Part shown: one piece after another, positions 147-58,501 of the stretch
How positions within the stretch are numbered: position 1 is the first letter of the stretch
Layout: each line of letters starts with the position of its first letter
The notes under the pieces: model-generated
The model's database searches: none
What the model was told of the DNA's origin: nothing
Seen by the model: the letters and a program-made list of their open reading frames with translations, nothing else
Made by a program: the position numbers and the translations under genes
NCBI GenBank assembly: GCA_017506865.1
Contig: JAFCMP010000548.1
Span: 310,001-374,000 of the forward strand
DNA: 64,000 nt
DNA from: Tribonema minus
Lineage: Eukaryota; Sar; Xanthophyceae; Tribonematales; Tribonemataceae
Direction: 5' to 3'

Positions 147-3100
147 GACTTTGCGGACGTCAACAACGTCGCTCGCTACCACGACCAGATCCGGCGCCAG
201 CTGGCGGACGTCCTCGTGCCGTGCGCGGGGCACGCCGTCGTGCTGTTCGATGAGCTGCAGAAGGTATGTATGTATGCATGTATATGACAAGGTTTGCAAG
301 GTACGCATACCGTGGTTTGCGAGCAGCTGATGCCCTACGTGGGGCACGCTGTCGTGCTGTTTGACGAGCTACAGAAGGTATGCATGTTTAGTTCATGACA
401 GGCGTGCAAGGCACTGCATACCTTGGTGTGCACGCAGCCGGCGGACCGTGCTGCTGGTGCTGTGAGCGGGGGGCACGACGCCGTGCTGGAGCTAGGGTAT
501 GTATGTTCTTTGAAGTATGCCTGACGCCATGTGCATACCGTGTGTTGCATGTGGAGACATTGTGCACGTGAGCTCCAGAGAGTATGCATGTAGGTATTTG
601 ATGAGCTGCAGAAGGTATGCATGCACCTGCCTCAAAAGTACATGAGGAGCCCGTACAGAGCGCATGGAGGTATGATGATGTGCTTGTATGTGTGTGCTGC
701 ATGCCCACAGCTTAAAGGTGGAGGTCAGCTTGATTTGCTGTCGAGCGAACCTGCAGAGGGCGGGCTGCCTGAGGCCAGGCCCTCACCACAGCCCTCATCT
801 ATCCTACAGCCATTTGTCTCAGCTCATGTGTCTCGGTTGCTTGCGCTGCAGGTGGCCCCAGGCACACTGAGCGTCCTCGAGCTGGCGCTAGACACCTGAC
901 CCTGAGTCTCCCCCCCTGTGCCCCCGCCCTCACCAACACCTTCATCACACCCCTTATTGTTGTAGGCCTACAACCATTGTTCTCAGCTTGTGTTCCTTGC
1001 TTGCTTGCACTGCAGGTGGCGCCCGGCACCCTGGATGTACTCGTCCCTGCTTTAGAGAATCGGCCCATGCTGACGCTGCCGCGCGGCCGCAGCTATATCT
1101 CCGTCGACTGCAGCAATGTGAGGCATCGGGCGTGATGATACGCGAGTCGCTGTTGCCTGTTCAGGCGCTTGCCGCAATGACCCGTTAGCACTGGTCGCAC
1201 TACTGATTTATTTAACGGCTTCATCGTAGACTACTACAGCATGTAGTGCCGTTATCTCCGTTGAGTGCAGCATCGTGAGGCCATGCAATGATGCTCAAGC
1301 AGTCTGAGCGTCATTTGGAATCAGACCTGCATGTGCAGAGGCAGCAGCGAGAACATTGAGCACTGGCCATTGTTCTCGCGCAGGAGGACAGTCTGCCTTA
1401 GTGCGTTGCCGGGTCAGGGTTGGGGTTGGAGTTTGGGTTAGGGAACAGGCTTAGGGTTAGGGTGTGTTAAGCGCTGTTGCTGCCGGGCGGCCGTGCGGCC
1501 GCAACGTCATCTCCGACAAGTGCAGCGACGTGAGGCGCTGCGATGATGCTCAGCCCGATTCAGCCCTACGCGTGGAGTAGGGAAGGCAGCAAGGAGATGA
1601 AGTGCCAGGCAGGCCATTGTCCTCACGCAGCGCGAACGGCAACAATTTGCGTTTGTGTCGCCGGGTCTGGTCTAGGGTTAGGGGCAAGGTCAACGTTATT
1701 CGCATTCAGGTTTGAGCTCAGTGAACGCCAGGGTCAGGGCGGGGGTCAGATTTAGGGTGAGGGTTGGCGTGTTGCACATGTTCACGGTGAGTAGCTCTCG
1801 AGCACCGGGCGTACTGTCGTCATTTTCTTCGCGTTGCTGCCGCACCCTGTGGCTTGCAAATGCACAGCGGCTGCCGCCGCGCTCCGTGCACGCGCGGCCC
1901 GACGCTCATGAATCGCCGCATCGCGATAGGGTTTGATTAGGGTCAGGATCAGGGCCCAGCACACGCTCGCTGCTACTGCATCAGCGCGCCGACATCTGTT
2001 TTCGTCGCGACCTGCTGAACGTTGCGTATGGCCAACATTCGTGCATCAGCGCTCATTCACTCCACGATGCCTACCCATTGCCACTCCTGCATGTGCCCCA
2101 AGTGTCGCTGCTGGTCCAACCAACGCCATGTGCATGTGGAACTCAATCAGGACTTTGAGTCGTTGTCGATTGGCACCATGTTGACACCCTGTGTCCTCTC
2201 AATGTGCCTTGCGAAGTATACATGACCAAGACTTTTGTGTCATCCTCGGTTAGTTGGGACCGTATTATCAACACCCTGCGCGTCGCTGCTGGGCCGGTGC
2301 GGCTGGTCGGCCGCCTCCCAACCCTAACCCTAACCCTAAGCAGCCGCTGGCGTTGATTGCTGGCAAGTCGGCAGTTCGCGACACCATGCTGGCAGGCACC
2401 CACCCGTCTGTCCCAACTTTCAGGAATGGTGCTGTCCTCTATTTGGCGACGTGTAGTCCGTCCCTGACGAAGCGACTGGGTTCTAGCATGCCGTCTGCAG
2501 GTACGCGTCCATTTCTGCGCGTGCCGCACGGTGCTGTTGATTTCCAGCAACGGCGCGGCGGCGGCGGCAGCAGCGCGCAACAACGCCCTGCCGCACGGGC
2601 AGTCCCATCTGTCCTGATGCCGTCGAACGCCGCCGATCACTGCACCAGTTGCTGCGTCATATGCAGTGTTCTCCCTGCGGATCTGTGGCTCACGTACCGC
2701 ATGCGCACTTCAATCTCTGTAAACAGTTGGTGGTGCTACTGGTGTCGGACATCGGCGCGGCGGCGGTGCGCGGCGCCATCCTGCCGTATGCGCGGCGCGA
2801 GGACGTGCCGCCGTCGGCCATCATGCCCGCAGTTCAGCGCGCGCTCGACCGACAGTGGAAGCACCTGAGCTTTGGCAAGGTGAGGGGGACGTCAACTACG
2901 TATTGGCAAACATAGCCTAGCCCACTTTCGAGCCCGCTGCTTCAACTTGAAGTTTGAAGTTGAAGAAGTTGAGAATGTGGCGCCCCGCCGTCGGGCATCA
3001 TGCCCGCCGTGCAGCGCGCGCTCGATTGCCAATGGCAGCACCTCAGCTTTGGCAAGGTGACTGGAGTGTCACATGGTGCATGTACATAGAAACACTTCAA

Positions 3101-6100
3101 GTGTGCCTTCTGACCCGCATCCTCAACTTGAATTTTGTCATTTAAGTTGGGGACGTGCCGCCCACAGTGATCATGCCAGCCGTCCAGCGCCAGTGGAAAC
3201 ACCTGAGCTCCGGCAAGGCGAGAGGCTGTCATAACATCCATGAAACGTGTACACACTGCAAGCGTGACTGTGATTCCTGTGCCGTACAAGTTGAAGGACT
3301 TCCGAACACGAAAGCCCACCGCCATCATACTCACCGTGCAGCGCACGCTCAACCGCCAGTGGAGGCGTTTGCGCTTAGGCAAGGCGAGTCCATCTCTGGA
3401 ACTGCAGACAAGTTGTTGAAGCTGTAGACTGGGGGGGGGCTTTTTTTTAGTGTTGATCTTGAAGTTTTGTGCGTTTTATTAACGCTGTGGCACTGTGAGT
3501 CGCGTCTGGAATTACACATCACGACACTGTATTATGCCTGCCTTCACACAACTGCAAAAACTTGAGCTGCAGCAAGCCGAGACCATTTGACGTGCTCAAC
3601 AACGACGCTGCCACCATGCGTGCGGTCCTCCAACTTCAACAGTTGACGCGCGCCCGTCATGTTGACAGGTGCGCCATGTCCACCATGCGTAGGGCAGTGA
3701 TTTGAAAGGCACCTGAATGCCATATGCACAGACGTACACACCGTGGGTGCGCACGCAGGTGGCGGACCGTGCCTACCAGAGACTCCTGATAGGATGTCGT
3801 TCACCCGTCGGCTCACACGTCGAGAAGAGAGGTCAAGGACCGTGTTAAGCGCCTGCGCCTGCGTGCGATCACATGCTCACCGCGCATGGGCCTTACACTG
3901 CCGCGCAGCGCAGCAGCCTCCTGCATGCGCCCCGCACCCCCGCTTCGCCTCCCGCGCGTGCAGGTGGTCGACTGGGTCATACCCTACCTACCCATGCTGC
4001 GCCAGGAGGTGTACGAGGTGCTGCTGCTACGGTCAGAGTTGAAATTAGGGTTAGAATGAACCCTGCACCCGAGAATCAGACGATAGAGCGCCACACACGT
4101 TGCAGGTCTCACGACGCAACCCCCTTCCCCGCGCGCACAGGTGGTCGACTGGGTCATACCCTACCTACCCATGCGGCGCCAGGAAGTGTACGAGGTTCTA
4201 CTGCTCAAGTGGCGCGAGCTCGAGTCGCAGCTGCTGGAGCTGCGCATGGCGGCAGCGCTCCTTGTAACCGAGGCGCTCACGTGGGAGCTCACGGGGCGCG
4301 CGTATGTCGCGTACGGGCAGTTCACGTACCGCGCACCGCAACTGTCAGCAGGTGACGCTCCACACACCTTGAAACAGGCGATGACGGAGCCCGCTGCGCG
4401 TTAAGGTCGTGCTCTTCAAAACTTGAGCTTGAGCTTATTCGACGCCAGGAGCTCACAGGGCGCGCGTACGTTACGTCGCGTATGGGCAGTTCACGTACCG
4501 CGCGCCGCAACTTGTCAGCAGGTGACGCTCCACACAACTTCAAACTCACACTTAAACTTGAACTGAAGTTTGAATTTGAACTAGCCTGTTGTAACGGGGC
4601 GCGTGCATGTCGCGTACGGGCAGTTCACACCGCGCGCCGCAACTGTCAGCAGGTGACGCTCTTTGCTCAACTTCAATTCGGATATTGCACTAGCGTTCAG
4701 AGTAGCCGGGCGCGCGTGCGTCGCATGCGCGCAGTTCACGTACCACATGCCAGGGCCACCGGCAGGTGACGCTCTCTGAACACCTCCAAGTTGAGTTTGC
4801 ACTCGCCTTGAGAGTTTGCCGGGCGCGTGTACGTCGCCTGTGGGCAGTTCACGTACCGCGCGCTGCAACCGCCATCAGGCGACGCTCTACACGCCTTGAA
4901 GCAGGTGCTGACGGGGCCCATGCTGCTCACCACTTGAACTTGCACTTGTTTGACGTCAGGAGCTCACAGGGATGGTATGAGAGGCTCATAGGGCGCGTAC
5001 GCTGCTTCTGGGCTGGCTCCGCAACAAGCCAGCCGTAGGCACCGCGCCGTGCCGCAGCTCGCAGATGCTCAAGGCACACTGCATATGAGCGCTTGACGCC
5101 CACGCCTGCTGAGCACTGCCTCTGCACAGCGCCGCAGGGACGGAATCTTGCAGGGTGCAAGGCGCGGCGGCGTCATGCAGCCGCGCTGCGGAAATGCCGA
5201 CAAGTGCTTGCCATGCCTTTTTCGCCCCTCACTGCGCGGAACAGCCCCCTGGAGTGAGAAATGGAGGGTTTGCCGTCTTGTCGAAGTGACGCGGTACACA
5301 GTGCTCTACCACGCCCTCTATCGAAACGCCCCCCCCCCCCCCCCCCCCCCCCCCGTCCCCCCCGCCTCTGACCTCCTTATCGCTTTCACCGTGCCCGCAG
5401 GGGGCCCCCAGGGCGCCGCCGCGGGGCAGTTACAGGGGACCCCCGTCGGCGAGTCGCCGCCGCGCATGACGCACGTGTTCTCGGTCTACGGTGCGCGCGT
5501 AGAGAGCAGCGGCGCAGGGCCTATAGAGTACCTCAGGGGGCTGTTCATGAGGATTGACGCCAGCGGCAGGTCGCAGGTGTGTGTCTGTGTCTGTGTATTT
5601 GTTTTGGGTTAGGGTTAGGGTTTAGATACGGGGGAGGGTTGGGGTAAGGGCTTTTGGTGATGCTTCGCAGCAACTACGCTGCGATGGCTGATGAAACAGT
5701 ACCTCAGGGGGCTGTTAATGAGGATCGACACCAGCGGCAGATCGCAGGTGCGCGTTGTTAGGGGGGTTAGGGTTGGGGGTAGGCTTCCATGTTAAAAGAG
5801 TCAGGGTTTAGGTTAGGGTTAGGGTCAGGGTTAGCGGTGGCGCATGGAAGACGAGCGACCCTGCTACCTTCGGAGTGCGTGCCGGCGAGCGCGGCGCGCG
5901 CGCGCGTGCGTTTTCGGGGTTAGTTTCAGGGTTTAGATACGGGGTAGGGGTAAGGGCTTTTTGATGATGCTCCGCAGCAACTACGCTGCGAGCGCCGATG
6001 AAAAAGTACCCCAGGGGACCATTCATCGACGCTGGCGGCGGGTTGCAGGTGCGCCGCGCGCGTGTTTCTAGGGCGGAGTTAGGGTTAGGTCGAGATGGGT

Positions 6101-8241
6101 TTGCGTTAGGGTTAGGGTTAGGGTTAGGGTGAGGGTTAGCCATCGCGCAGCAGCGTGCCCGCAGTGCCGGCCGTGTGCGCCCTTCATGCATTCTCGAAGC
6201 GCGCCCGCAGCTGCTCCTGCGGCCGTCCCCGCCCGCGCCGTTTGGATTGAAGCCAGCGCCTCTCGCAACGTCCATGACAGCTTCGAGTTGAAGTTCAGAG
6301 CGCGAGCGCCACTGTGTTCTCAGCCTGTGCGGCGGTGGAACTGTGTCAGCCTCGCGCCGCCATCAGTGCAGCTGGCGGAGAGCTGTGCCCGCCCTCTGTT
6401 CAGTCCCGCGCCCCCGCCCCTGTTGCACCTGTTGACCAGCATCGCTTCAGGCACAAACGATGGCTTCAAATGAGCCCAGATGGTTTCAAACTACATTGCT
6501 AAACCAGGGTGACTGAGTGAGCCGCGAAATCCGGCACAGTCCTGCGCTCCCGCCCCACACTGTTGCACCTATTGTTTCTCCCCGCTGAAGGCGCGCGTGG
6601 CTTCCAGAAGGCCACCACACGGTTTGAAACTCACTGTCATGTCTTCATCCTGTGCAGAATCACACCTCAGCCAAACACAAGCAAGTTGCCCTTCCGAAAT
6701 CGTATTCTAATGCTTCCTAGCACAGGATGGGATGCACACGCAGCTGGCCGGCCTCGTGTGCACTTGCGTTTGCCCTCTTGAACTTGCACTTGGGAACTCG
6801 CAGCAGCAGTTGAATCACCTATGGCTAAAATGTGCGTGGCGCAGGATGTCATACACGTGCAGCTGGTGGACCTCATGCGCTTTCGCCCTGTTGAAGTAGC
6901 ACTTGAACTTGCAGCAGTCGAACTCACCTATGCTTCAATGTGCGTGGCGCAGGACGTCATACACGCGCAGCTGGTGGACCTCGGGCCGGAGCGAGTCGCG
7001 GAGCTGCACTGGTGCCCCCAGGGGTACGCAGCAGGGCTCAGCCGCGAGCAGCTCAACAGCCACGTTGCCGTACAGGTGCGTATGGTGTTCAAAGCGTGGT
7101 TGAGCACTGTGTCGTCGTGCGCATCATTGGCTAGACTAACTGACTTCAACCATGATAGTCTCGGTCTAGTGATGATGAAGGTGCAGCAGGGCTCAGCCGC
7201 GAGCAGCTCAACAGCCATGCCGCCGTACTGGTGCGCGTGCTGGTTGGGCGTATATCGTCTTCACCTCGAAGCTCCAAGAGCAACAACACCAAATTGCCCA
7301 GAGCAGCCCGGTGTTGTTGTTTGTTTACTTGTGCCCGAGCCAGAGCCGCACCGTTCACGTCGCACGCGCGCAGGGCTACACGCTGGCGGTGCGCGCGTCG
7401 CTGCAGCAAAACACGTGTACAGAAGTGGTAGCAGTATTGTGTGCATACGGTCTTTGCGACGGAGCGCAACCTGGTGTTCATGTGTGTTCAACGTTGCCTG
7501 AGATAAAGCCGCACCGTTCACTTCACGTTGCACATATCGTTCACATTTGTTCGCACGCCTTACGCAGAGGCCTCTGCAGTACATCTCTTGTAGAGAAGAG
7601 TAGGCGGCATTCTGCGTTTTGCAGCTTCTGCAGCGCAGCAACCTGGTGTTTCTGTGTGATTTGCTATCGTCTGAGCCGGAGCCGCACAATTCACGTTGCT
7701 CGCGCGCAGGACTGCCCGCTGGTGGTGCGCGCGCCGCTGCAGCAAATGACTTGCAAAAAGCGTTAGCAGCGCTGTGAGCGCATGGTCTTCTGCGACGGAG
7801 CAAATTGTTGTTGTTGTGTGTCTACTGACGCCTGCGATGATGCAGCACTGTTCGCGTTACCTTGCATGGGCGCAGGACTGCACGCTGGCGGTGCGCGCGC
7901 TGCTGCAGCGCGCGCCCGCCGCGCCGCGCGTGCTCGAGGCGCCCATCGTGCAGGAGGATTTCGGCGAGGCGGAAGAGGGGGGCGCAGCGGGGGGGTACGC
8001 CGCGCCGCCCGACGGTGTCGCACAGCAGCAGCCGCAGCAGCCGCAGCGGCAGGAGCAGCAGCGGCCGCAGCAGCAGCAGTCGCCGCCGCCGCTGCCGCTG
8101 CAGCAGCAGCAGCAGCAGTCTCTGCCGCAGGAGCAGCAGGAGCGTGATTATCGCCCGCAGCAGCAGCAGCAGCAGCAGCAGCAGTCTTGTGCCGCCGACG
8201 AGTGCGAAGCGCCAGCGCCGCCGCCCGACCGGCCCCCATGA
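147..8241 (+). CDS. Torsin-like AAA+ ATPase, 3' part of gene
   Basis: Seven exons join in phase: 147-263, 1016-1117, 2727-2879, 4141-4351, 5401-5576, 6953-7075 and 7876-8241 (415 residues, stop TGA). The first visible exon ends in a Walker B-like strand, VVLFDELQK; the second begins VAPGTLDVLVPAL; the third has a sensor-1-like strand LLVSDIG followed by a YARREDVP stretch; the fourth has VIPYLPMRRQEVYEVLL. The order and spacing fit torsins and the C-terminal AAA+ module of ClpB-type proteins, which remodel proteins or membranes, torsins in the ER/nuclear envelope lumen. The Walker A region must lie left of the window. The last exon encodes a long Gln/Pro tail unlike the family. Every intron carries junction echoes of the flanking exons. 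Chaperone versus torsin function is inferred. Confidence 0.75.
264..620 (+). repeat. Downstream junction echoes of exon 147-263
   Basis: After the real donor at 264 the intron repeats the exon end plus donor. The best copy, 324-377, reads QLMPYVGHAVVLFDELQK and is followed by GTATGC. A decayed copy lies at about 441-495 and a short one at 595-613 again ends in the GAGCTGCAGAAG block followed by GTATGC. Spacing is about 115 bp. Confidence 0.8.
790..1015 (+). repeat. Upstream junction echo of exon 1016-1117
   Basis: The stretch 790-899 resembles 960-1065, including the intron flank and the acceptor. At 852 a CAG acceptor is followed by codons for VAPGTLSVLELALDT and then a stop. The real exon starts 164 bp later at 1016 with VAPGTLDVLVPAL. 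The echo therefore carries acceptor plus exon beginning only. Confidence 0.8.
1118..1560 (+). repeat. Downstream junction echoes of exon 1016-1117, with TTAGGG-like tracts
   Basis: Around 1240-1280 and 1495-1545 the end of the preceding exon (ATCTCCGTCGACTGCAGC) recurs with substitutions, each followed by GTGAGGC. Between them, at about 1425-1470, lie TTAGGG-like units. Similar units recur at 1670-1770 and 1925-1955. Confidence 0.65.
2319..2340 (+). repeat. CCCTAA interstitial telomere-like tract
   Basis: Three perfect CCCTAA units lie in the 3' half of the intron 1118-2726. The 5' half of the same intron holds the complementary TTAGGG-like units near 1430-1470 and 1740-1770. Confidence 0.8.
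2880..3580 (+). repeat. Four downstream junction echoes of exon 2727-2879
   Basis: Copies of the exon end (IMPAVQRALDRQWKHLSFGK) finish at about 3056, 3217, 3383 and 3576. The base pairs at the donor position read GTGACT, GCGAGA, GCGAGT and CCGAGA, against the real GTGAGG at 2880. Sequence identity also falls with distance. Spacing is 160-190 bp. Confidence 0.85.
3740..4140 (+). repeat. Upstream junction echoes of exon 4141-4351
   Basis: At 3964 an acceptor CAG is followed by the same exon start, VVDWVIPYLPM, with few changes through about 4030, 177 bp before the real exon. A weaker acceptor-plus-start copy lies near 3758 (GTGGCGGACCGTGCC). Confidence 0.8.
4352..5040 (+). repeat. Five downstream junction echoes of exon 4141-4351
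   Basis: The exon end, ELTGRAYVAYGQFTYRAPQL, recurs ending at about 4521, 4652, 4765 and 4878, with a fifth very decayed copy at 4960-5030. Three copies keep GTGACGCTC at the donor and the fourth has GCGACGCTC. Spacing is 170, 131, 113 and 113 bp. Short stretches of opposite-strand reading in this region are shadows. Confidence 0.87.
5577..6060 (+). repeat. Two downstream junction echoes of exon 5401-5576
   Basis: Copies of YLRGLFMRIDASGRSQ lie at 5698-5747 and 6004-6048, each followed by GTGCGC. Each is preceded by the same intronic block (GCAACTACGCTGCGA) and separated by TTAGGG-rich sequence, so the unit here is about 300 bp. Confidence 0.85.
6071..6140 (+). repeat. TTAGGG interstitial telomere-like tract
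   Basis: Four perfect TTAGGG units run at 6107-6131 with degenerate units on both sides. Similar units lie at 5606-5625 and 5806-5835. All are in the 5' half of the intron 5577-6952 and in sense orientation. Confidence 0.8.
6720..6952 (+). repeat. Upstream junction echoes of exon 6953-7075
   Basis: Acceptor plus exon start (DVIHAQLVDL) recurs at 6845 as DVIHVQLVDL and at 6726 in a more changed form. Spacing is 108 and 119 bp. The pre-acceptor flank (GAACTTGCA..ATGTGCGTGGCGCAG) is copied too. Confidence 0.82.
7076..7235 (+). repeat. Downstream junction echo of exon 6953-7075
   Basis: The exon end (GLSREQLNSHVAVQ) recurs at about 7183-7230 as CAGGGCTCAGCCGCGAGCAG and so on, followed by GTGCGC, 155 bp after the real junction. 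Confidence 0.8.
7374..7875 (+). repeat. Upstream junction echoes of exon 7876-8241
   Basis: Acceptor plus exon start (DCTLAVRALLQ) recurs at 7710 (DCPLVVRAPLQQ) and 7374 (GYTLAVRASLQQ). The distances are 166 and 336 bp, so a third, nearly erased copy is expected near 7542, where only fragments of the flank remain. Confidence 0.82.
8022..8190 (+). repeat. CAG-rich polyglutamine tract in torsin-like gene
   Basis: CAG/CAA and CCG codons encode several Gln runs mixed with Pro (runs of 6-9 Q) within the last exon, near the C-terminus. The antisense reads as poly-Leu and is a shadow. Confidence 0.9.
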
Positions 8242-37200: not shown

Positions 37201-39835
37201 TTCAATATTCAACTCTAACAACCCTCACCCGCGCGACCCTGATCTGCACGCTGTGCTGCCTGTGGTAGTCGAGGAAGAGCGTCTCCGCCACGCGCTTCCC
37301 CTCGTCGTAGCACGCGCGCACGCCTATCGGGTTCACCTGCACGGGCGACGACAGAAAGCAGGGGGGGGGGGGGGGGCGCTCAAGGTCAGCGCGCGGCGGT
37401 ATCATCTAGCACTGGCGGCTGACCACCCCCTATCACCTAGAGCTCTACGATCTTTAGATTCGTTTTCGTATCTGGCAGCACGCGCACAGACCTATCGGGT
37501 TTACCTGCGCGTGCGAGGGATCGTCGCCAGCAAAGCGGGCCTTGAGGTCGGCGCGCAGGTTCTTTTACTATGCGGCGGGGTTGGTAACGTGCGACGCGCG
37601 CAACGTGCAGCGGCGTTGCGGCGCAGCGGGGTCTAACCCTAACCCTAACCCTAATCTTAGACCTAACCCTAATCCTAGGGCTTGATGAGGTTGGGCACTG
37701 TGTCGAGCGTCCGCGTGGCGGCGGGGGGGGGGGGGCGCACTGTCGCACTCCATTCATTCGTTCATTCATCAATCATTCATGATTCATTCACAAGGCTGCG
37801 TGAGGACCATGTGAACGAGGCGCAGGTACAGGCAGCGGGCACAGGCGGTCTCCCCTTCGCGCTGCCGCTGTGTCGCCATGTTGCGTTCGCTGGCGCCAAG
37901 AGTGCACAGCAGTGGACATTGTTAGGAATAGGGCTACAGTCAGTGTAGCTGACCCTAACCATTACGCTGCGTGGCCCCTCAGACCACAGAACAAGCGCAA
38001 ATAGCGCTGAACAATGTGACGAACAATGGATGCAAACAGCGCGTCCGCGGTACAGTCGCTGCCACACGAGTTGAGCACTGTGGATAAGCGTTTTTTTACG
38101 CACTCGCGCAGCAGCAGCGAGCCGCTCGCAACAGGCAATGCATGCCTGCAACATACTTCCAAGTACGCTCCAAAGCATAGACTAATGGGATACAAACTTG
38201 TACGCTACATGCTTCGAAGCACATTCAGGATCAATGGTGATGCTGCACTGCACGTAGTGACGCTCTGGAGGAGCGAGAGCGGGCAACGCATGCGTGCATT
38301 TGCTGCCACCACGAGCAAGCCCGCGTGCAGCATGCATAAGTGGTTGAGCACTGCTGCTGCCCCACCGCCACTCACGTCGCCCCCCCGGCTACCGGCAGAG
38401 CGCGGTGACAGCGATGAGCGTCCGCTGCCACTGCAAGCAAGCTGATCTAGCATGCAAAAGTGGCTGAGCATCGCTGATTGTGACTCACGTTGCCCCAGTA
38501 CTGCTCCGTCTGCGGCGTCTGCTGTGCATCGCCGTAGACCTCGCTGGTCGATGCTGCGGGGGGGGGGGGGGGGGGAGCGGCGGCGGAAGCGTTGCGGCAC
38601 GCACTGAGACGGAGGCGGGGGCGGCGAGACTGCCGCGGCGTAGCAGGGCGAGTGCGCAAAACAATAGCAGTGGCGGCGATGACCGGCTGGAGAGCTGCGT
38701 CGCCAGCCGCGGCTGCCGCTGCGCAGCTGCCAAAAAGCGGAGCGCTCAATCCAAACAGCAACAGGTCATCGTCGGAGGTGTTGCGTGAGGGCGGGCGCAG
38801 CGGCGAAAGCGTCACGGCGGCCCCCTGAGAAGGGGGCGGGGGGGTTGGCGCCGCGGCGCAGCAGGGCAAGAGTGCGCGGCGAGCAAAACAATGGCGGCAG
38901 CGCTCAGCAATTGGAGAGCTGTGCGCCGCCGCCACGCCCGCTGCCGCAGCTGCACGCGCTGCTAAGTAGCAGCAGAGGGCTCACACAGGTGTACGAGCAG
39001 GGCCAGTCCTGCGAGGGAGCGCGTCGCTGCCGCAGTCCGTTCATAGCTGAGCATCAGCGCGCGCCGTCCCTAACCCTATTTCTACCCAAACCTAACTTCA
39101 ACCCTAAGTAAACGCGAGCGCGAAGCATCAGCCTCCTCTGCTACCACACCCTCGCGTGCAGTCACAGCGTTGGCTGTGCGGTACTGGCGTGAACGTATCG
39201 TTGCGGATGCACGTTTTGATGCGTGGCTCCTGACGTGTGCACCGTGCTTCGCAGCACACGTGGATGCAAGCACGCACACTAACTTGCTGCTGTAGCCCTT
39301 CTTACCTGATGGTCTGTGGAAGGGTGCTCATTGCGCAGTACGCATACAAACATGCTATTGCTGATGTGTGCGACGCACATACACCAAATGAACTATGCAT
39401 ACACTGTGTACTTTGATGCGTGTATTACTTCAAAGCATGCTAAATGTGCATGTAGCTCAGTATCGGGCATGTACGCATGTGCATGCTTCGGGGCCGATAC
39501 GTATATGCCATGTTTTATGCATCATCGTAGTGTACATGCACGTACAAGCGTACGCACCAATGTGCACTCGTGCATGTGTGTTACTGTGTAAGCGTGGGCA
39601 TGTGTTTGCGCGTATGCATCAGCGACTGAGGAAGGCGGGTATGCAGGTACCTTGCAAGATGCGCGCGCGCACGCGCTTCGCCAGTCCCAGCATGTTCAGC
39701 GCGCCGCAGAAAGAGATCTTGGCCGTCTTGATGGGGTTGTACTGGTAGTGCACGGGGCTGCGCGGTTGAGCAGTGTTGCGGCACCATGGCAGCAGCGGCA
39801 GCGGCAGCAGCGCCAGCAGCAGCGGCGCCAGCAGT

Positions 39836-39880
<45 letters not shown>

Positions 39881-48300: not shown

Positions 48301-51300
48301 TGTCACTGCTCAGGTGCCCGGCGCGAGCATCTACCGTGCGTGCCAGGATGGTGATCTGCAGCGCGTGCAGGCGCTGCTGGGCTCGGGGCGGCGCCTGCCA
48401 GTCAACGCGTGAGTGCGGCAATGATTCACACGTGGTTTTCATTCATAACTTGACTTATCAAACATGAGGCAAAGATTCAGCACGCTGCTGGGCCCAAGGC
48501 GGCGCCTGTCAGTCAACGCGCGAGTGTGGCGACGCTTCATACATGATTTTCATTCATAAACATGACCTGTCAAACGTAAAGCAAAATTTCAGCATGCTGC
48601 TGGGCCCGGGGCGGCGCTTGCCGGTCAATGCATGAGTGCGGCGACGCTTCACACATGATTTTCATGCATGAATTGACTTGTCAAACATAAAGCAGAGTTT
48701 CAGCACCCGGTCAACGCGTGAGTGCGGCAACGCTGCACACATGATTTTGTGCATGAATATGACTTGTCAACATAAAGCAAAGTTTCCGCACGCTGCTGGG
48801 CTCGGGGCGGCGCCTGGCGGTCAACGCGTGAGTGCGGCAGCGCCCCACAGATGGCTTTCAATCATGAATTTACTTGTCAAACATATGCGGAAGTTTCAGC
48901 ACGCTGCTGGGCCCGGGGCGGCGCCTGCCGGTCAACGCGTGAGTGCGGCGATGATCCACACATAATTTTCAATTCATGAACATGGTTTGTCAGGAACTCC
49001 GGCAACTCGCTCAGCGGAAAGTTGAGGATGCTGCGTGTGACGCCGCGGACTACGGTACATGCATGAGCATGACTTGATTCAACACACAAAAAAAATCTCC
49101 AGCAAGCAGCTCGCGCGAAGGAGAGCTGCGGGTACTTCGTGAGACGCCGCGCGCTGCGTGCGGCGCGCCGTTGCGCGATGAAGCGGCGGAGCGCGTTGCT
49201 GCACTCAACGCCCCCTGCGTGCCGAAGCGTGGAAGCGGCGCATCCCGCGCCTCTGCGCGGCCTTTCGCTCGCCGCGCCCGCTCCAAATGCGTGCGTACGC
49301 CTCGGCGTGCTTAGGGTTAGGGTTAGGGTTAGCAGCGCTGCTCAGCGCCATGTGCTCAGCGCTCAGCCGACGCTCCGCGCTCGCAGCCGCTTGCTGTCAC
49401 GAGCGCTGCTGCGCAGGCGTCGCATTCGCAACGTCACCTGCGACAACCGTAAGTGATCGCCACTGAGCAGCAACCCGGCAAAGCGACAGTGTGTGTCGTC
49501 GCCCGCGATAACCCACCCACCCCCCCCCGTTTCCCCCGCCGACTCAGTGGGGTGACCGCACCCGTAAACCAGCGCGCACGGCAAGAGGCGCTGCGTCGCG
49601 CTGCGCAAGCGGACCCAGGTATGGCGGGCGTTGCGCATTCCTAGTACGCCAGCTACCCAAGGAAACGCACACCGTCAAGGACCTCAAATGCCCCCCCCCT
49701 CCCCTCCGGCCTCCCCCACGCGTGCACGAACACGTCTGTAGGCCCAAGCAGCACCAAGCACGAACTTTGCGCTCCCAAGTCCTGTACGTACTGTTCAAGA
49801 GCATGCGCGCCGCGCCAGACTTTCGACCCCCCCCCCCCCCCCCCCCAGCCCAGCCCCCCCACCCCCCTAACGACCCCTCTGCATACACACGCATGCAGGC
49901 CCAACGCGCATGGCAGCACGGCGCTGCACTACGCGGCGCGGCGCGCGGCGCAGCGCCTGGTGGACGTGGCGCGCTGCGCGGGCAGCAGCAGCGGCGGCGG
50001 CGGCGGCACCGACGGCGGCGGCGGCGAAGCGAGCGCCGCCGCGGAGGGCGCGCTTCAACTAGTGGTGAGCGCTGCTGCAGAGATGGCTTGAGCCCGCGCT
50101 TTTGAAAAGCCGCACCCGTCCGCATGTCGCCGCGTGCAAACCGCCGCCGTGTATGCACTTGCTGTCCGTTCTGAATGATCACTAGTACTGCACTGGGCAA
50201 GTAGGACCTGGGATGGCTCGAGCCTGCTCTCGAAAGTTGTGCCCCCATACCGAGCTGGTTCTTGAGATAGCTTGAGAGCCCGCTCTCGGAAGTTGCATCC
50301 CTCGTACATCACCATGTAAACCCCCCCGCCGCGCCCTCTGTTGCTGCTGCTGGCGCTGATTCTGCGCTGCCTGAGCGCTGCTGCGCCTGCAGGTGCACCT
50401 GACGTGTACCTGATACCGCCCCATACGCAGTTGCTGTCCTGTGTATAATTGGTACCTGGGATGTTTCTGAGCCCCCCTCTCTCTTGCGAGTTGTGCCCCC
50501 GCACCTCAACATATGCACAGCAACGCCGCGCCCTGATGCTGGCTGCGCTGAACCTCTCCTGCCTGAGCGCTGCTGCGCAGGTGTACCTGATGGCGCGCGG
50601 CGCGGACGCGCGCGTGGCGGACGGCGCCGGCAGGACGGCGCTCGACCTGGCCACGAGGTGGGATGCCACTTTTCGAAGTTGAAGTCGTACTTCAAGGCGC
50701 CGTCGAGGCCGGCGGCGAGGCTGGCCACTGCGCGACCATCGCGTAGTCGCGCGGCCGAGTGGTCATGTCTGAATGGTGTACTTCGAATGTGCTCGAAGCG
50801 TTCAAGATTTGCTGCAACCACATCATTGCGTGCCCCGTGAGGCATGAGGGAGGGCAGCTGTGTGGTGCTTATGTGCAGCAGAAAAGAGCGCATGTGGCGC
50901 CTCACACTGCGGCATAGAATGCGGTTGGCAATTCAGCACGCTGAATCGACAGGCGTGCCTGCACGTCCCTCTGGGGCTACCACCACTGCGCGCGCCGTGT
51001 TGAGTGAGCTAGCACAAGCGCTGGGAGCCCCGGCCTTACTGGCCAACACAACAAAAATCATTTGGAGAATGACATGTGCCATTTGTCACCTGACGTGGTG
51101 CATGTATCACCATGACGTGACACACAAACGCCGCTTATCGAGCACTGCTGCAGCCTGCCTGCCTCGGGGGGCGCCGTGGTACCGAGTTCTCAACTGTTCC
51201 AAGGGTTCACAGTATTTGCGCTGAACAGACGACCAGCCCCCTTGTTGAGCGCTGTCTGCACCCCTGTCGAGCACTGTCTGCATGCCGGGCTGTGACCTCA

Positions 51301-54247
51301 GCCGTCACGCTACCCCTAACCCTACCCCTAATTCGACTCGGCGGGAGGTATGTTGCACCCTCCTTGACCACTGCCGCTGCAAACACACGCTCTCAAGGGG
51401 ATGGCGCAGCTCCAATTTCTAGCCCAAACCTCAGCTGCAACGCTGATTTGCCACTTACCCGACGCACAGCAGACAGGATCGCTGACTCACAATGAGCGCT
51501 GCCGCTGCAACTGCATGCTCTCAGGGGCACGGCGGGGTACTAACCCTTATTTTAACCTTAAGTCAATACAGCTGTAGGAATCGTGGCTTGACGACGAGCG
51601 CTGCTGCTGCAACTGTTCGCTCAGGGGGACGGCGGGTTACCCCAAACCTTTTTTGAACCCTGAGTCAATGCAGCATGAGCCTGAGGGATTGTAGCTGAAC
51701 GATAGAGCGTTGAAACTGCGTGCTCTCAGGGGCACGGCGGGGTACCTTAGCCCTCACCCTTACCCTAAGATGACACAGCGAGAGGGGTTGTGGCTTCACG
51801 ATGAGCGTTGACACTGCAAATGCATGCGGGGGGACGGCGGGGTACCCTAGCCCTCACCCTGACCCTAAGTTGACACCGCGAGGGGCATTGTGGCTTAACA
51901 ATGAGCGTTGACAATGCGTGCTCTCAGGGGGACGGCGGGGTACCCACGCGCGCAGCGCCTGCTGGTGGGAGTCCTCGACTCCAGCAAGTACCAGGTGGAG
52001 GGCGACGCGCTGTATATCGTACCCGACGAGGCAGCGCTCGAGCACCACATGGCTTCGCCCGCATACGGTGAGCCGTGTCGTGCGTTTTGGGGGTAGGGTT
52101 AGGGTTCAGATCTCTTTTAGGGCTAGGGATAGAGCAGTAACAGGGTTGTGTGATTGTGTGCCCAATGAGGCAGCGCTCGAGCACCACCTGGCGTCGCCCG
52201 CATATGGTAAGGCCCAACATGCGGTTCAGGTTTGGGAGTATGGTGCCCCCCCACTACGCCTCACTGCCTATGCCTTGTACTACTGCAGCACGGATCACGT
52301 CTGCACATTGTGGATGGATTCTGCATTCCCGGTTCCCCTTCAAAGCTTGACGCGCTGCCGCCCTGCACAGGCTGAAATGACATGCGGGCGCGTGACTGCT
52401 TGCGGTGCGTTCACTGCCCGAGGCACCACGCAGAAGCTAGAACTTCAACTCTGCTGTGAAAATTCACTCGTCTGGTGCTCGGGCGGCCCAGCGGATGCCG
52501 CGCCCCACGGGCGCCAGTGCTCAACGTCGGGCCGCAGTGCTCAGGACTTGCGCTGCCACGCGTCGTCTCGCATCCCTTCCAGGCACGGCGACGAGCATGC
52601 CCAACGCTAACCCTAATTCAAATCCCAAACCTGAGCCTAACGCTAACCATGACCCTTTGCATCCTCGCATCCCTTCTAGGCATGGCAACGTGCCTGTTGC
52701 CGCCCAACTCTAGCCCCAACCTGTCCCTGACCGTGCGCCCAATTCTGGACCTTGTCATTTCAGGCACGGCAACGCGCGCGCCGCCGCCGCGGCCGCGCCT
52801 GGAGGTCGGCGGCATCGTCTTTGAGCATGCCAGAACGCGCCCAGAGGCAGCCCTCAGGTAATGAACTCCGGTCAGCATGAGGGTTAGTCAGAATGAGGGT
52901 TAGGGCTAGATTAAGGCAGTGCCACGGCACACATTAGCTCTGGTGAGAGCTAGGTCCTGAAAGCGGTTGGGGTCAGGGTTGACAAATACGGTTGGTTCTA
53001 CGTCATACGTACATGATATTCGTACACTGCCCTGAGAAGCCAGTGCGTTCGCCATAAACTTCAACTTGAGTTTCACTCATGTTGAACTTCTTATCTTTGC
53101 GCCCGCGAGCTCCGTGTGCGTGAGGGGCTGTGTGCGGTTGCCGAGCATGGTGTTGTTTGTCGATCACGAGCTGCGCGCTTCATGTTGTATATGATTGCTC
53201 AATACAGTCATTGTACCACGATCTGTGCTCTGCATCCCAGCTGCGCTGCCTTGCACACGTGCTGCTGCTTGCCTGTCGCAAGCAGCGGTCCGTATATTCA
53301 TCCTGGCGGGACTCAAACGTACGCTCATACGGTACTTCGAAGTATATACGATGCATACGGCGTAAGCTGCATATGTCAACCCTGGTTAGGGGGCTCGGCG
53401 GAAGCATTGTCTGAGGGAATTGCGGTTGCTAGAGTTGGGCTGCGCTGTCCGCTGCGCTGCAGATAGGGTTGTCACGGCGAGTGAAGGTCTACCTGGCGGT
53501 GCCGCAATTCGCATAGGAACAGCAGTGGGGTTGTAACGACATGCTCATGAAAGAAAGGACCAACCCTAACCCTACTTAACACCTGACCCTAATCCAATTT
53601 CTAAGCGCCATCGCCGCTGGAGAGTACTTCCGCACTCCACAGCGGCTGACCAGCGCCCTCTGCCGCCGCCGCCGCCGCCACCGCCGCCGCCACCGCCGCC
53701 GCCGCTGCCGCCGCTGCCGCCTCCGTCACTGCATTCACGCCGCTGCCGCTACTGCCTCAATCACTGCATTCGCCGCAGGCACGGTCTTGGAGCATCGCCT
53801 CCGCAAGTGCGCGCCTCAACTGCGCCGGTGCGGTCCGCTCGCGGCGCGCGCGCGCCGTCGCCGCCGCGGCCCGCCACCGCGCTGCCCTCGGCGTGGCAGC
53901 AGCGGCAGCCGCGGCAGCACCAGCGTTGCGCACAGCCGCAAGCGCAGCGCCTGCAGCACCTGCAGCAACAGCAACAACATAATCACCGCCACCAGCAGCA
54001 GCAGCAGCGGCAGCAGCACCAGCTGCAGTGCCACCAGCAAGGCATCAGCGGCGGCGGCGGCGGCGGCGGCGGCAGCGGCAGGGGCAATCGTCACCCCGCC
54101 GTCAGCGTTGGCGTCGTGTTTGAGGAGATGCGGTTTGGGCGGCATCGTTCGGTCTGCGCATTGCCGTCGGCTGCTGCGGGGGCAAGGGGGCAGTCGAGCC
54201 ACATGAGGGGGACACGGCCAGGTACACACACACGCAGTGCAGACTAG
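45382..54247 (+). CDS. PH-ankyrin protein with Gln-rich C-terminus
   Basis: Nine exons join in phase: 45382-45480, 46519-46638, 47443-47595, 48314-48408, 49899-50064, 50581-50657, 51928-52067, 52764-52857, 53779-54247 (470 residues in view; an upstream start is not identified). The first three exons form a pleckstrin homology domain: MVEGAIERL, VWRLRWAQVVPGELRLYAD, then ARFGRDCAFTV, and the closing helix LTRWSAAVRAA. The next three give ankyrin repeats: YRACQDGDLQRVQALLGSG, NAHGSTALHYAARRAAQRLV, YLMARGADARVADGAGRTAL. A Gly/Asp-rich insert interrupts the second. PH-ankyrin proteins bind phosphoinositides and partner proteins at membranes, often as Arf regulators; no Arf-GAP zinc finger is visible. 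The end is Gln/His/Gly-rich. A donor at 54211 (CCAG then GTACAC) could extend the gene beyond the stop. Confidence 0.7.
46240..46518 (+). repeat. Upstream junction echo of PH exon 46519-46638
   Basis: At about 46253-46318 the exon start recurs (VVPGELRLYADAKPPLSAD) after a TGGTGCAG acceptor, 266 bp before the real exon. Confidence 0.85.
46982..47442 (+). repeat. Upstream junction echoes of exon 47443-47595
   Basis: Acceptor plus exon start (AMAARFGRDCAFT) recurs at 46984 (ALAARVGFCRARYT), 47149 and 47239 (AMATCSGHCAFT). Each is preceded by a CGCGCAG or CACAG acceptor. Spacing is 165, 90 and 204 bp. Confidence 0.82.
48030..48313 (+). repeat. Two upstream junction echoes of ankyrin exon 48314-48408
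   Basis: Acceptor plus exon start (VPGASIYRACQDGDLQRVQ) recurs at 48173 (VPGASINRACHKGDLQCV) and 48039 (VLGVSIHRACHDGDLQRVQ). Spacing is 141 and 134 bp, with the same pre-acceptor flank (GTGTCACTGCTCAG). Confidence 0.92.
48409..48960 (+). repeat. Five downstream junction echoes of ankyrin exon 48314-48408
   Basis: The exon end (LLGSGRRLPVNA) plus donor recurs ending at about 48519, 48631, 48719, 48827 and 48938. The donor position reads CGCGAG, ATGAGT, GTGAGT, GTGAGT, GTGAGT. Spacing is 88-112 bp, and each unit also copies the intron (TTCATGAATTTGACTTGTCA-like). Here the most distant copies are the best preserved. Confidence 0.92.
49309..49335 (+). repeat. TTAGGG telomere-like tract
   Basis: Three perfect TTAGGG units in the intron 48409-49898, sense orientation. 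Confidence 0.85.
50085..50580 (+). repeat. Intronic repeats and an upstream echo of exon 50581-50657
   Basis: A block reading GATGGCTCGAGCC..CTCTCGAAAGTTG recurs at about 50089, 50210, 50260 and 50459. Near 50370 the pre-acceptor text (CTGAGCGCTGCTGCGC) is followed by GTGCACCTGAC, a weak copy of the exon start at 50581. Confidence 0.65.
51385..51927 (+). repeat. Five upstream junction echoes of exon 51928-52067
   Basis: The pre-acceptor flank (GAGCGTTGAC..TGCTCTCAG) plus exon start (GGGGACGGCGGGGTACC) recurs with starts near 51828, 51730, 51625, 51525 and 51396. Spacing is close to 100 bp, 129 bp for the last. After each exon fragment the copies run into CCCTAACCCT-like text. Confidence 0.92.
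52068..52220 (+). repeat. Downstream junction echo of exon 51928-52067
   Basis: At about 52158-52206 the exon end recurs (VPNEAALEHHLASPAYG) followed by GTAAGG, 139 bp after the real donor. TTAGGG-like units at 52094-52110 lie between them. Confidence 0.9.
52570..52763 (+). repeat. Two upstream junction echoes of exon 52764-52857
   Basis: Acceptor plus exon start (GCACGGCAACGCGCG) recurs at 52583 and 52680, each after a TCGCATCCCTTC-tract and AG. Spacing is 84 and 97 bp. Each fragment runs into CTAACCCTAA-like text. Confidence 0.88.
53930..54085 (+). repeat. CAG/GGC tract coding Gln and Gly runs
   Basis: Runs of Gln (about 5 each) and a run of Gly in the last exon of the PH-ankyrin gene. 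The frame was chosen by phase from exon 52764-52857. Confidence 0.8.
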
Positions 54248-55270: not shown

Positions 55271-58200
55271 ATGGCGAGCGACTGGTGCAGCACGCGTGGC
55301 GCGGCGGCGGCGGCGGCGGCGGCGCGGCGCCCCGCAGTGCCCGACGCCGAGGCGCGGCGGCTCATCAAGGGGTACATAAGGGAGCGCGTCACCGCCGCCA
55401 GGTGCGCGTTGCGTCTTGTGCGGCAGCCGCGCTCCGTCATCGTCACACTCGAAAGACTTCCCATTGGCATATCAGCAACTACTTTTGGGTCACAGGACTG
55501 GTCACGCAAGCCTGTGGTGCAGACTTCGTGGAGGGGTGCCCCGCGACTGTCGCGCGTACGCGACGTCTGGAGTGTCGGTGTGTCCCTCTCAGAGATCCTG
55601 TGTACGCGACATCTGGAGCTCAGGATATACTGTACGCGAACTGCTTTGCGTGGCGCAACCAGCGTTTTGCGTAGAGACGGTGCAGACTTTGCTGGCGCCG
55701 TGCACTCGCACACCTTGCGTGGGATCCGCAAATTTGAAATCTGACTCTAAGTTTGCGCGTCAGTGTGTGCGCACGGACTCGGTTCACAAGACTTAAGCAA
55801 GGGCATGCAGGTGACTCTCCATGGTCCTGCTGAAGCGCGGCGTCCAAGCCTTGCTGGCGCAGCACGTGCAAGCCTGGTCAAGCCTGTCATCTGCCCTAGC
55901 CTAGCACCACAAAGCTCAAACATCCCTCCATGAGAGTTTAAAAACAAACAAATGCAAGGCAGTTGTGTGTTGTCGCCCAATTTTGGGGCACTGACAAGCA
56001 TGCTTTTCTTGTGTGCCCTACTCTCTGCGGCCGCGCAGGAGTCCGTCCACCGGCTTTGGCCTGTCGGAGCAAGACGCTATGATGGTGGGCTTCGACACCA
56101 GCGACGCCATCAGCGAGGTGCGTGGCTGGCTGAGCGCTGCCTTACTGAGCATCACCACATGCATTAAATGCCACAGTACCATGCGCTAGGAGAACATCTC
56201 AGTGGAACGATATTGTGGCTGCTCACAGACAAAGGGTGCTGCACGCATTCTGAAGACAAAGGGTGCTGCACGCATTCTGAAGTGCTACTGGCACGGCATG
56301 CGAATAGAGAAACGGTGCGCAGGTACCAGTAGGTGGGTACCACCACTATTCAGGTACTAGACATTGGCAAACTGTTCATGCAGATGACCACCATTATTAA
56401 GGTATGCAGGCAGGTAACATCACCACTGGGAGGTAGGCGTCGCAACACTGCATACATCATACACATAAACATACATGTGTGCGCAGCCGCACCACGTCGC
56501 GTACGCACACTCGTTTCAGCACCTCGCGGCGACGGCGCATACCCCCCCCTTTCCCTTCTACACCACACCCCAACCTCACGCCAACGAACCCCCCCCCCCC
56601 CCCCCTTCTCTGCGACACGTCAATGACGCTCAATGACGCACCTCACCCGCTCCGGCGCGCCGCGGAGGCCCTGGAGGTGCTATACACTACCATCTCAACT
56701 TATTGTGCTCACAGCGAGGTGCCTCGCGTACGCGTCCATCGAGCGCTTTACGAAGCGCTCTGTGATGTGAAGACACCTCATGTGTGAACACCGGTACTGT
56801 TGTATGTGGTAGGCAGGTATCACCACTGTGAGGTATGAAGGTAGGCAATCTCAGGGTCCCGCAACGACCGTGCATGCGCCCCTCCCCCCCCCCCCCCCTC
56901 CCCCCTCCTCTCCCTTCTCCACGACACCACAACATCAACGACTACCTCCCTTCCCCCCCCCCCTTCTCCACAACACGTCAACGACGCTCAATGACGCACC
57001 TCACTCGATCCAACGCATTACGCAGGCCCTGGAGGTGCTCAAGGGGCGCCGCCGCGGCGAGCTCCTGTCGCTCGACGAGCTGCGCGGCGTGCTGGCGCGC
57101 GCGGGTGCGGGCGCCGCGGAGACGCTGACGCCGTGCGAGGTCGAGGCGCTGTGCCGCGAGGGCGATCCCAACGGCACGGTACGTGCTGCGCCCAAAGCAC
57201 TTGAAGTAAATTGCACTGCTTGGTGAACATGATGGACAAATCTGATGGGGCATTACGTCAATAACTTTCCGAGGGCAAAGGTGTGGTGTGCGCTGACGCC
57301 GCGCGAGGTCGAGGCGCTGTGCCGCGAGGGTGACCCCAACGGCACTGTACGCGCTGCACTGTCTATCGGCTACTTTGAAGTACTTCAAAGCACACGCTTC
57401 TTCTGCATATTCTGGCTGAAGGCGACAGACAGTGCGCGTGATCACCTTGCGCGTGTGCGGGGGACAACAGCGTGGAGGCGCGAAGACGCTGATGCCGTGC
57501 GCCGTGCCGCGACGGCGGCCCCAACGGCACGGCAGTGCGCGACGCAATGCTGCCTGCTTTTTGTAGGCGACGGCCGCTGATGCACTAGGAACCCAGATGA
57601 TCATTGGTTGCCTGCAGGCAAAGGTGTGGAGGCGCTGGCGGCGCGCGGGGGTTGGGGCGCTGTGCCACGAGAGCGGCCGCAATGACACGATATGCGCCGC
57701 ACTCCGTGATTATGAACACCGGGTCGGGGCGCATGGATGATTCAGGCACTCTGCCGCCCACTTCATACAGCGTCAGCGCGTTGTGTTGTGCGCAGTGCTC
57801 GCACATATGCTCCTACAGTCCTTCTTCTGAGCAACGATGTCTAGAAGGCCCCACCATGCGCTGTCTCGACCTTGCTCATTTGCAAGCCAGCAAGCCAGCC
57901 TGCTGCGGGCGCAGCGGCAGCAGCGCAGCGCGGCTCTGTCTGCGCAGCACTTCAGCGGCTGTCATGGTTGCCGCATTCGTAACGCAACCAACGGATATGC
58001 AATCCGATCTGTGCTGAGCAACTCATGCACACAGGCCAGCGTGGCGCCTTGTGTTGCGGAAACGCACAGCGGATGCGCAACCTATCTACCCCGCTGCAAT
58101 GTGCCGGCGTGCGCTTCCCGGCGCCAACCACCCCACTTTTTCTACTCAACCTGCCCGCCTACCAACCCGCCTCTCATCGCTGCCGCCGCGACTCGTGCGT

Positions 58201-58360
58201 GCCTCCGCCGCCGCCGCAGGGCTACGTGCGCGTGGGTGACTTTGCGGCGCTGCTCGCCGCGGACAGGCTCGCGCCGCTGCCGCCGGGGCGCGCGTACACG
58301 GACGCGGACGACGTCGTGCTCGCGCTCAAGCGCCGCCGCGCTGCAGCGGCGGCAGCAGCA

Positions 58361-58392
<32 letters not shown>

Positions 58393-58501
58393 CGAGCCGG
58401 CGCTGCACCGGACGCTGGCCAGCGGCGGCGCGTGCAAGCAGCGCTGCGCCACCGCTGGCGCGGCGGCGGGGGAGCGCCGGGTGTCGCTGCGGGCGCGTTG
58501 A
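55271..58501 (+). CDS. EF-hand calcium-binding protein
   Basis: Four exons join in phase: 55271-55401, 56039-56117, 57026-57178 and 58220-58501 (stop TGA). ATG 55271 (MASDWCSTRG) is a working start; the frame is open further upstream to an ATG at 55058. After an Ala run come VPDAEARRLIKGYIRERV, GFGLSEQDAMMVGFDTSDAI, a helix-loop-helix region LSLDELRGVLARAG, and an EF-hand loop split by the last intron: DPNGT joined to GYVRVGDF (acidic or polar at loop positions 1, 3, 5 and 12). The protein ends in an Ala run from GCG codons and a basic tail. EF-hand function (Ca2+ sensing) follows from the loop; the partner is unknown. A single canonical loop and one weaker partner are visible. Confidence 0.65.
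56540..57025 (+). repeat. Upstream junction echo of EF-hand exon 57026-57178
   Basis: The poly-C tract, GTCAATGACGCTCAATGACG flank and exon start (ALEVL) at about 56585-56685 match 56885-57045. The unit is about 350 bp. Confidence 0.85.
57179..57690 (+). repeat. Downstream junction echoes of EF-hand exon 57026-57178
   Basis: The exon end (LTPCEVEALCREGDPNGT) recurs at 57292-57349 followed by GTACGC. A decayed copy lies at about 57478-57530 and a more decayed one at 57620-57690. Confidence 0.85.

Follow-up and report, generated by a model that had tools for sequence, protein, structure and literature searches.

Some introns of Tribonema minus carry diverged copies of the adjoining exon edges: polarity, anatomy and possible origin

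Several genes in a 64,000-nucleotide stretch of the genome of the xanthophyte Tribonema minus (hereinafter the window; positions 310001-374000 of contig C545 in a genome of 158 Mb in 554 contigs) have introns that contain what we call echoes, i.e., short, diverged repeats, located within an intron, of the edge of an exon that borders that intron. These junction echoes are a real feature and occur on several contigs; some genes have many of them, others few. What is new here is that the exon part of the echoes stays far more alike than the adjoining intron sequence, the similarity often breaking at the junction. The explanation that we favor, with a probability of roughly 0.55, is tandem duplication followed by expansion of the arrays and homogenisation by the conserved exon.

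The exons of two genes in the window, one torsin-like and one encoding UXS (UDP-glucuronate decarboxylase), were fixed by spliced alignment to the EukProt transcript proteins P0121 (96% identity to the 342-residue torsin query) and P0001 (99% identity to the 174-residue UXS query, which is covered in its entirety), respectively. All 15 introns of these two genes are of the GT-AG type, with lengths of 107-1609 bp. Both proteins skip the echoes, using the first donor of donor arrays and the last acceptor of acceptor arrays, and confirm the exons of the two genes. When the exons of the two genes were searched against the introns (expectation value, E ≤ 0.05, without low-complexity filter), 28 matches fell within introns flanking the respective exon: 20 in the downstream intron, 17 of which reach the 3' end of the exon while 3 stop short, and 8 in the upstream intron, all 8 including the 5' start of the exon. 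None of these 28 matches is on the wrong side or on the minus strand, and none covers a whole exon. A further 29 matches fell in introns that do not flank the exon concerned, most of them due to low-complexity sequence of the CAG type in the last torsin exon.

A larger set of eight genes with 60 introns includes, in addition to torsin and UXS, ABCF1, CCT3, RRP43, TCP1, CCT2 and BiP, whose exon models come from spliced alignments with homologous human proteins (the final acceptor of the RRP43 model is weak). ABCF1 came from a known repeat-rich region, CCT3 was chosen after an echo showed in a table, and RRP43 was taken from high-scoring open reading frames; TCP1, CCT2 and BiP were picked blind to echoes. 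The last apparent intron of CCT3 (66 bp, without a proper donor) and the first exon of TCP1 were dropped before counting, and a signal-peptide-peptidase-like gene was left out of the set on account of its poor model. At a cut-off of E ≤ 1e-4, repeat pairs between exons and introns in this set comprise 62 of the donor type, 18 of the acceptor type and a single off-rule pair. Thus, 80 of the 81 pairs obey the polarity rule put forward in the earlier note, namely that copies downstream of an exon hold its end with the donor and copies upstream hold the acceptor with the exon start; in the lone off-rule pair, the copy ends 23 bp before the donor, and no pair is on the wrong side. The first five genes (34 introns) contribute 60 donor-type, 18 acceptor-type and the one off-rule pair, along with 45 pairs of echo-linked intron sequence and 15 intron-only pairs, and the 26 introns of the blind-picked genes contribute 2 donor-type and 2 intron-only pairs, both of the latter ending at or beside an acceptor; inverted pairs number 3 and 0, respectively. 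When 60 exons (the last exon of each gene omitted) were compared with the 60 introns, 64 matches were found in flanking introns and 2 elsewhere, with none on the minus strand; among the flanking matches, 47 involve the 3' end of the exon in the downstream intron, 13 the 5' end in the upstream intron and 4 an inner part in the downstream intron. The exon-versus-intron searches, both for torsin and UXS and for the eight-gene set, yielded no copy of a whole exon, as the earlier note had also maintained.

Junction echoes are present in 25 of the 60 introns. Echo-rich introns, as reported previously, are indeed found in several genes, but not in the blind-picked ones, where 2 of the 26 introns have echoes. 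The proposal that introns are inflated by echoes holds: there are none in the 10 introns under 300 bp and some in 11 of the 15 introns over 1 kb, and among introns no longer than 1 kb, the length classes have on average 207-457 bp of non-repeated sequence as the repeated bases climb from 0 to 379. In one ABCF1 intron, 11 donor echoes were detected, which exceeds the range of one to five copies per junction given earlier. Some repeat is present in 28 of the 34 introns of the first five genes, where repeats account for 37% of the intron bases, compared with 4 of 40 pseudo-introns taken from long coding-free stretches of C545 (2.8% of the bases covered), a contrast that is inflated by the choice of genes. 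The blind-picked genes, with repeats in 4 of 26 introns, are close to the pseudo-intron level, and all 4 of these repeats touch a junction.

The orientation of the local repeats is strongly biased. Comparison of the window with itself (E ≤ 1e-6) yields 53 direct repeat pairs, 46 of which start less than 3 kb apart, and 1 inverted pair. Over 264 kb of C545 (E ≤ 1e-4), there are 144 direct versus 4 inverted pairs at spacings of 100-800 bp, the trend being reversed below 100 bp (3 direct versus 10 inverted pairs, short palindromes), and direct pairs less than 800 bp apart take up 10% of the bases. Not all such repeats are intronic: among 41 further clusters on this contig, at least 3 (84599-86413, 95952-96520 and 174731-176778) are part of long reading frames that are rich in repeats. 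Direct local repeats were also found in three of four 6-kb samples from other contigs, the fourth being devoid of them. Furthermore, whole-genome profile searches revealed exon-start copies upstream of exons in chaperonin genes on C51 (two) and C135 (one), one exon-end copy, located downstream, in a chaperonin gene on C5, and one exon-end copy each, likewise downstream, in kinesin genes on C511 and C246. All six of these echoes on other contigs are on the side predicted by the polarity rule, and the DNA of four loci was read. The tables from such searches, which show long, well-kept copies only, contain no echo among 80 HSP70 matches and no certain echo among 18 AMP-binding matches.

The spacing of units in 40 junction arrays is 76-214 bp, with a median of 154 bp, and one ABCF1 intron has a three-unit period with a spacing of 414 bp. 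Divergence between copies is usually 5-35%. Nine donor arrays have at least three echo pairs, and in these, identity to the exon does not drop steadily with distance, so that the copies were not simply pushed outward from the junction; the idea that the youngest copy adjoins the exon was rejected, given that no consistent order was seen in these arrays. When 50 donor echoes are compared with the functional junction, identity in the exon part amounts to 0.86-0.91, the GT has 0.92, and positions from +3 onwards have 0.65-0.71; multiple alignment of 22 donor arrays gives 0.845 for the exon part versus 0.526 for the intron part. The same is seen when echoes are compared with each other (0.739 versus 0.517; 10 of the 11 arrays with at least two echoes), and in one array on C545, 55 identical exon-part bases stand beside an intron part that is 47% alike. 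The nearest echo shares intron sequence (z ≥ 5) in 15 of 24 donor arrays (in torsin intron 5, by way of telomere-like repeats), which is what contiguous duplication would be expected to give, and in 8 of the 24, the intron parts of the nearest pair have no detectable homology (z ≤ 2). Among the 37 nearest pairs, homology spans at least 80% of the spacing in 13 and less than 60% in 21.

The exon parts of the echoes look neutral, with little sign of coding constraint. The synonymous share of single-change codons is 127 of 280, close to the 42% calculated for neutral echoes of an exon under constraint; indels are present in 18 of 55 exon parts, and a net frame shift in 10 of 50. The GT is kept in 43 of 50 donor echoes (GC in 3) and the AG in 16 of 18 acceptor echoes, and loss of the GT is no rarer than change at codon positions 1 and 2 of the echoes.

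We propose that recurrent small tandem duplications, with one break in an exon and the other in an intron, enlarge introns. The founding duplications would likely come from fill-in and end joining at staggered breaks, from which small tandem duplications are known to arise (PMC8355091). Duplications that alter the coding sequence would be purged, and those lying inside introns or across a single junction would survive, which could account for the polarity, because a tandem duplication spanning a donor leaves the protein unaltered only when splicing uses the first donor, with the mirror requirement (the last acceptor) for acceptors; duplication of a whole exon alters the protein. Polarity thus follows from splicing and, taken alone, is not evidence for a junction-centred process. 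The arrays, which reach 11 copies and show no order by age, would then expand like minisatellites. With less certainty, exon-to-echo gene conversion may keep the exon part alike while the intron part drifts, and may thereby prolong the visibility of junction arrays relative to those in the interior of introns. Such conversion would produce exon parts that are alike and yet neutral, the alternative being copying of the exon edge only. In UXS, a codon change (His-Ser) is common to the exon and the echo nearest to it but absent from the other echoes and from the strain of the transcript, which has His-Gly, so that copying or conversion continued beyond the split of the strains.

Several observations are not easily accommodated by this scenario. 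In 12 of 37 nearest pairs, homology stops within 8 bp of the junction, which requires either conversion or exon-only copying. The break points are non-uniform with respect to the available room (Kolmogorov-Smirnov test, P = 0.002 for donors and 0.0005 for acceptors): donor exon parts span 2-135 bp, with 14 of 25 at 43-59 bp and one at 25-42 bp, and acceptor exon parts span 0-76 bp. Selection against exon-like long copies could remove long exon parts, but the donor gap below 43 bp is left unexplained by it. In-frame stops were gained once versus 6.2 expected, compared with 10 versus 11.6 in each of the other two frames, which hints at constraint. Repeats are rare in long coding-free DNA, to judge from the 4 of 40 pseudo-introns mentioned above, and junction arrays are in excess over a uniform model at both present and repeat-stripped intron lengths.

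This excess is pronounced. Of the 47 arrays, 40 touch a junction (25 donor, 15 acceptor), whereas 11.9 are expected from present and 16.8 from repeat-stripped intron lengths, and none of 200,000 simulations reaches 40; the other 7 lie inside introns and contain no exon sequence, so that the description of every array as a junction copy in the earlier note was too broad. The excess is seen without the two window genes (26 of 29 versus 11.6 expected), in arrays with at least 90% identity (18 of 19 versus 8.4) and in the blind-picked genes (4 of 4 versus 1.1, P = 0.007), and it persists if junction arrays are assumed to be twice (23.9 expected, P < 1 in 400,000) or, in weaker form, four times (31.0, P = 0.002) as visible. 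With founding introns of about 200 bp, however, 38.4 junction arrays are expected and the excess is gone (P = 0.33; 0.12 in the 90% subset); it disappears only at about this length or below, and is back with founding introns of 300 bp (29.3 expected, P = 0.0004). A search with the exons cut out beforehand gave 38 clusters, of which 19 abutted a junction and 19 did not, several of the latter being echo-echo repeats. Junction targeting is therefore possible but neither shown nor required, and polarity does not by itself speak for the junction-centred process suggested previously. A process of this kind, in which border DNA or reverse-transcribed RNA is preferentially copied into the adjacent intron, with typical breaks about 50 bp into the upstream exon and about 40 bp into the downstream exon, would fit the excess in the complete set, in the most similar arrays and in the blind-picked genes, as well as the clustered lengths of the exon parts and the homology that ends at the junction. 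Nevertheless, we consider it rather unlikely, given the lack of significance with short founding introns, the prolonged visibility of junction arrays that are refreshed by the exon, and the clusters away from junctions in the exon-stripped search. Also doubtful is the proposal that splice junctions themselves are the substrate, such that a stretch of 40-60 bp at the end of the upstream exon along with the GT, or of 25-45 bp at the start of the downstream exon along with the AG, would be copied into the intron, often without adjoining intron sequence, perhaps from splicing intermediates or breaks at transcribed junctions; if this is true, introns would grow from their borders by a splicing-linked route.

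Functional echoes, either as alternative or poison exons or as selected decoy splice sites, would fit the retention of the GT and AG and the deficit of in-frame stops; this is improbable, however, considering that GT loss is no rarer than codon position 1 and 2 changes, that the synonymous share fits neutrality, that one in five exon parts is frame-shifted and that the echoes are omitted from the two transcript proteins. The signals of a cassette exon are not enriched either: AG directly before donor echoes, a candidate sign that had looked frequent on inspection but was rejected after counting, occurs in 23 of 62 cases against a background of 31%, and GT after acceptor echoes in 6 of 18 against 37%. 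Intragenic tandem duplications are plainly frequent in this genome, as the origin of introns from a duplicated exon segment (AGGT tandem-duplication intron gain) would have it, but that route predicts that the upstream exon end with the intron start resembles the intron end with the downstream exon start. This was the case for 0 of 143 pairs, there being no exon-exon pairs among 139 (34 introns) and 4 (26 introns), and we reject it as very improbable. Introners or another transposon family building the introns might be suspected from the telomere-like and TTGAAG motifs that recur in several introns. Yet the echoes match their own flanking exons (64 versus 2 elsewhere), and the 37 inter-intron matches (E ≤ 1e-3, 60 introns), of which the 25 listed are at most 71 bp long and mostly telomere-like, reveal no shared full-length element, so that this explanation, too, was rejected and has next to no weight for us. 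An assembly artefact seems just as implausible: assemblers can misplace repeat units and nothing more specific points that way, but the copies usually differ by 5-35%, the breaks coincide with junctions, several contigs are involved and transcripts fit the flanking exons.

The torsin-like gene (150..8238, plus strand; spliced alignment to P0121; Pfam Torsin, E = 7e-10) starts before the window and has seven exons within it (150-263, 1016-1117, 2727-2879, 4141-4351, 5401-5576, 6953-7075 and 7876-8238), separated by six GT-AG introns of 752-1609 bp. The exon-versus-intron search places donor echoes of exon 150-263 at 331-377, 435-488 and 597-614, weak ones of exon 1016-1117 at 1253-1272 and 1487-1526, those of exon 2727-2879 at 2985-3056, 3151-3217 and 3321-3383, those of exon 4141-4351 at 4448-4521, 4594-4652, 4708-4744 and 4821-4878, and single ones of exons 5401-5576 and 6953-7075 at 5698..5747 and 7183..7228, respectively. 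Acceptor echoes of exon 7876-8238 come from the same search (7376-7407 and 7710-7743), those of exons 4141-4351 (3933..4028, exon part 3964-4028) and 6953-7075 (6845..6874, intron part from about 6720) from this search and self-comparison, and that of exon 1016-1117 (803..869, pairing with 967-1033 and comprising the intron end with 18 bp of the exon start) from self-comparison of the window.

The UXS gene (33846..42625, minus strand; spliced alignment to P0001), whose relatives with solved structures carry the name UDP-glucuronic acid decarboxylase 1, has nine GT-AG introns and ten exons (42625-42499, 42391-42364, 42193-42157, 41076-40928, 39757-39651, 38553-38489, 37336-37229, 35801-35683, 34871-34801 and 33904-33846). 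In the exon-versus-intron search, exon 37336-37229 has four donor echoes (37172-37108, 37053-36978, 36912-36857 and 36798-36740) and one acceptor echo (37477..37504), exon 35801-35683 has two acceptor echoes (36090-36054 and 35946-35907), and exon 34871-34801 has one donor echo (34701..34755), which is also seen in the self-comparison.

In the ankyrin-repeat gene (plus strand; Pfam Ank_4, E = 5e-12 for the spliced reading), the exons were read by eye, without a transcript, and a protein search with this gene found no match. Self-comparison of the window reveals acceptor echoes at 46198..46319 (real copy 46455-46584) and 47217..47274 (real copy 47421-47481), and acceptor arrays at 47927..48370, which ends at the real acceptor, and at 51487..51945. 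The exon that follows the former array also has a donor array, 48409..48992, with the real donor at 48409 and echo donors at 48520, 48632, 48718, 48828 and 48939; similarity is mostly 0.83-0.94 among its exon parts, of which one copy retains rather little, and 0.66-0.85 among its intron parts. Further along the plus strand, a donor echo at 52158..52211 is separated from the real copy (52019-52072) by telomere-like GGGTAGGGTTAGGG. The EF-hand-like gene, on the same strand, has an acceptor echo at 56542..56681 (real copy 56901-57039) and donor echoes at 57291-57357 and 57617-57703 (real copy 57123-57189), again from self-comparison. The torsin, UXS and ankyrin identities proposed in the earlier note are supported by Pfam, the EF-hand assignment is weak (best Pfam E = 0.012, 16.4 bits versus a cut-off of 30), and the PH domain has no Pfam match.

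The telomere repeat of this genome is TTAGGG, present at 2 of the 10 contig ends read. Interstitial telomeric repeats occur in introns (5605-6129, 35149-35206, 52091-52104 and others), and sometimes separate echo copies; the idea that joints are usually filled by telomere-like stretches was considered and rejected, with 7 of 20 in array spans (12% of bases), three of these in one array. Runs of TTGAAG lie within array spans in 6 of 16 cases, and the notion that the two ends of an intron carry complementary motifs (TTGAAG, CTTCAA) was likewise dismissed, there being only a mild 5'-3' skew over 23 introns. The GC skew, also taken over 23 introns, falls from a 5'-end value of +0.10 to a 3'-end value of -0.26. 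Short motif families that recur in introns of the window and of the loci L043 and L044 include TTGAAGTTGAAG, ACTTCGAAGTA and CAGCAGCGCTCAGC. Elsewhere in the window, similar open frames of 239 and 240 codons (23888-24604 and 28517-29236, plus strand), which encode nearly identical proteins and are about 4.6 kb apart in a stretch nearly free of local repeats, are perhaps a mobile-element or multigene-family pair, and open frames on opposite strands 34 kb apart (24994-25665, minus; 59372-59824, plus) share GSIGEQGRKLQEAVATEYASRMSVPGGARPKALKGIALA, which looks like a dispersed repeat. Long CAG/CTG stretches (polyglutamine, polyalanine or similar) are found in frames at 7.9-8.2 kb and 18.9-20.1 kb, and also at contig ends of C545 and C50.

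Lengthening of introns is usually unreadable, because the sequence decays or derives from transposons, whereas here, with the conserved exon as a reference, intron growth becomes readable copy by copy. The echoes offer a natural test system for asking whether duplications favor transcribed junctions, how as many as 11 duplicate donors can be passed over in splicing and whether intronic copies are converted by their exons.

Minisatellite arrays consist of tandem units of about 100 bp in variable copy number. The echo arrays resemble them in their direct orientation and short, regular spacing (144 versus 4 inverted pairs; median 154 bp) and in the three-unit period in ABCF1, but differ in that the units are anchored to an exon, which serves as the end unit of the array. 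Gao and Lynch reportedly described, in 2009, internal gene duplications with partial introns, where, as in our case, the duplicated segments span an exon-intron border; the echoes, in contrast, form serial arrays at many junctions per gene, include only parts of exons and leave the protein unchanged in the two genes with transcripts. Unlike in tandem duplication of (mutually exclusive) exons, no copy of a whole exon with both splice sites was found in the 60 introns. The intron gain of Hellsten et al. (2011, as summarized in the review PMC3443670), in which an AGGT segment is duplicated in tandem in the genome, is similar in that a tandem duplication within a gene is tolerated since splicing removes the extra sequence; however, whereas that process, as summarized there, makes a new intron from an exon, existing introns are lengthened here, the unit already brings a functioning junction with it and its copy ends up buried within the intron. 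Local direct duplications are shared with end joining at staggered breaks as presented in PMC8355091, an account from which the homogenisation of exon parts and the clustering at splice junctions set our case apart, its mechanism being putative. Similarly to introners, as characterized in PMC9860276, the echoes reshape introns at genome scale, but introners are shared elements that create introns, and no shared element was found among the 60 introns. In agreement with the earlier note, no named intron class that fits, and no report of such echoes, was listed when the open-access literature was searched at full-text level. As far as can be told, the kinds of events involved are known, and it is their combination at splice junctions, as a mode of intron growth, that is apparently new.

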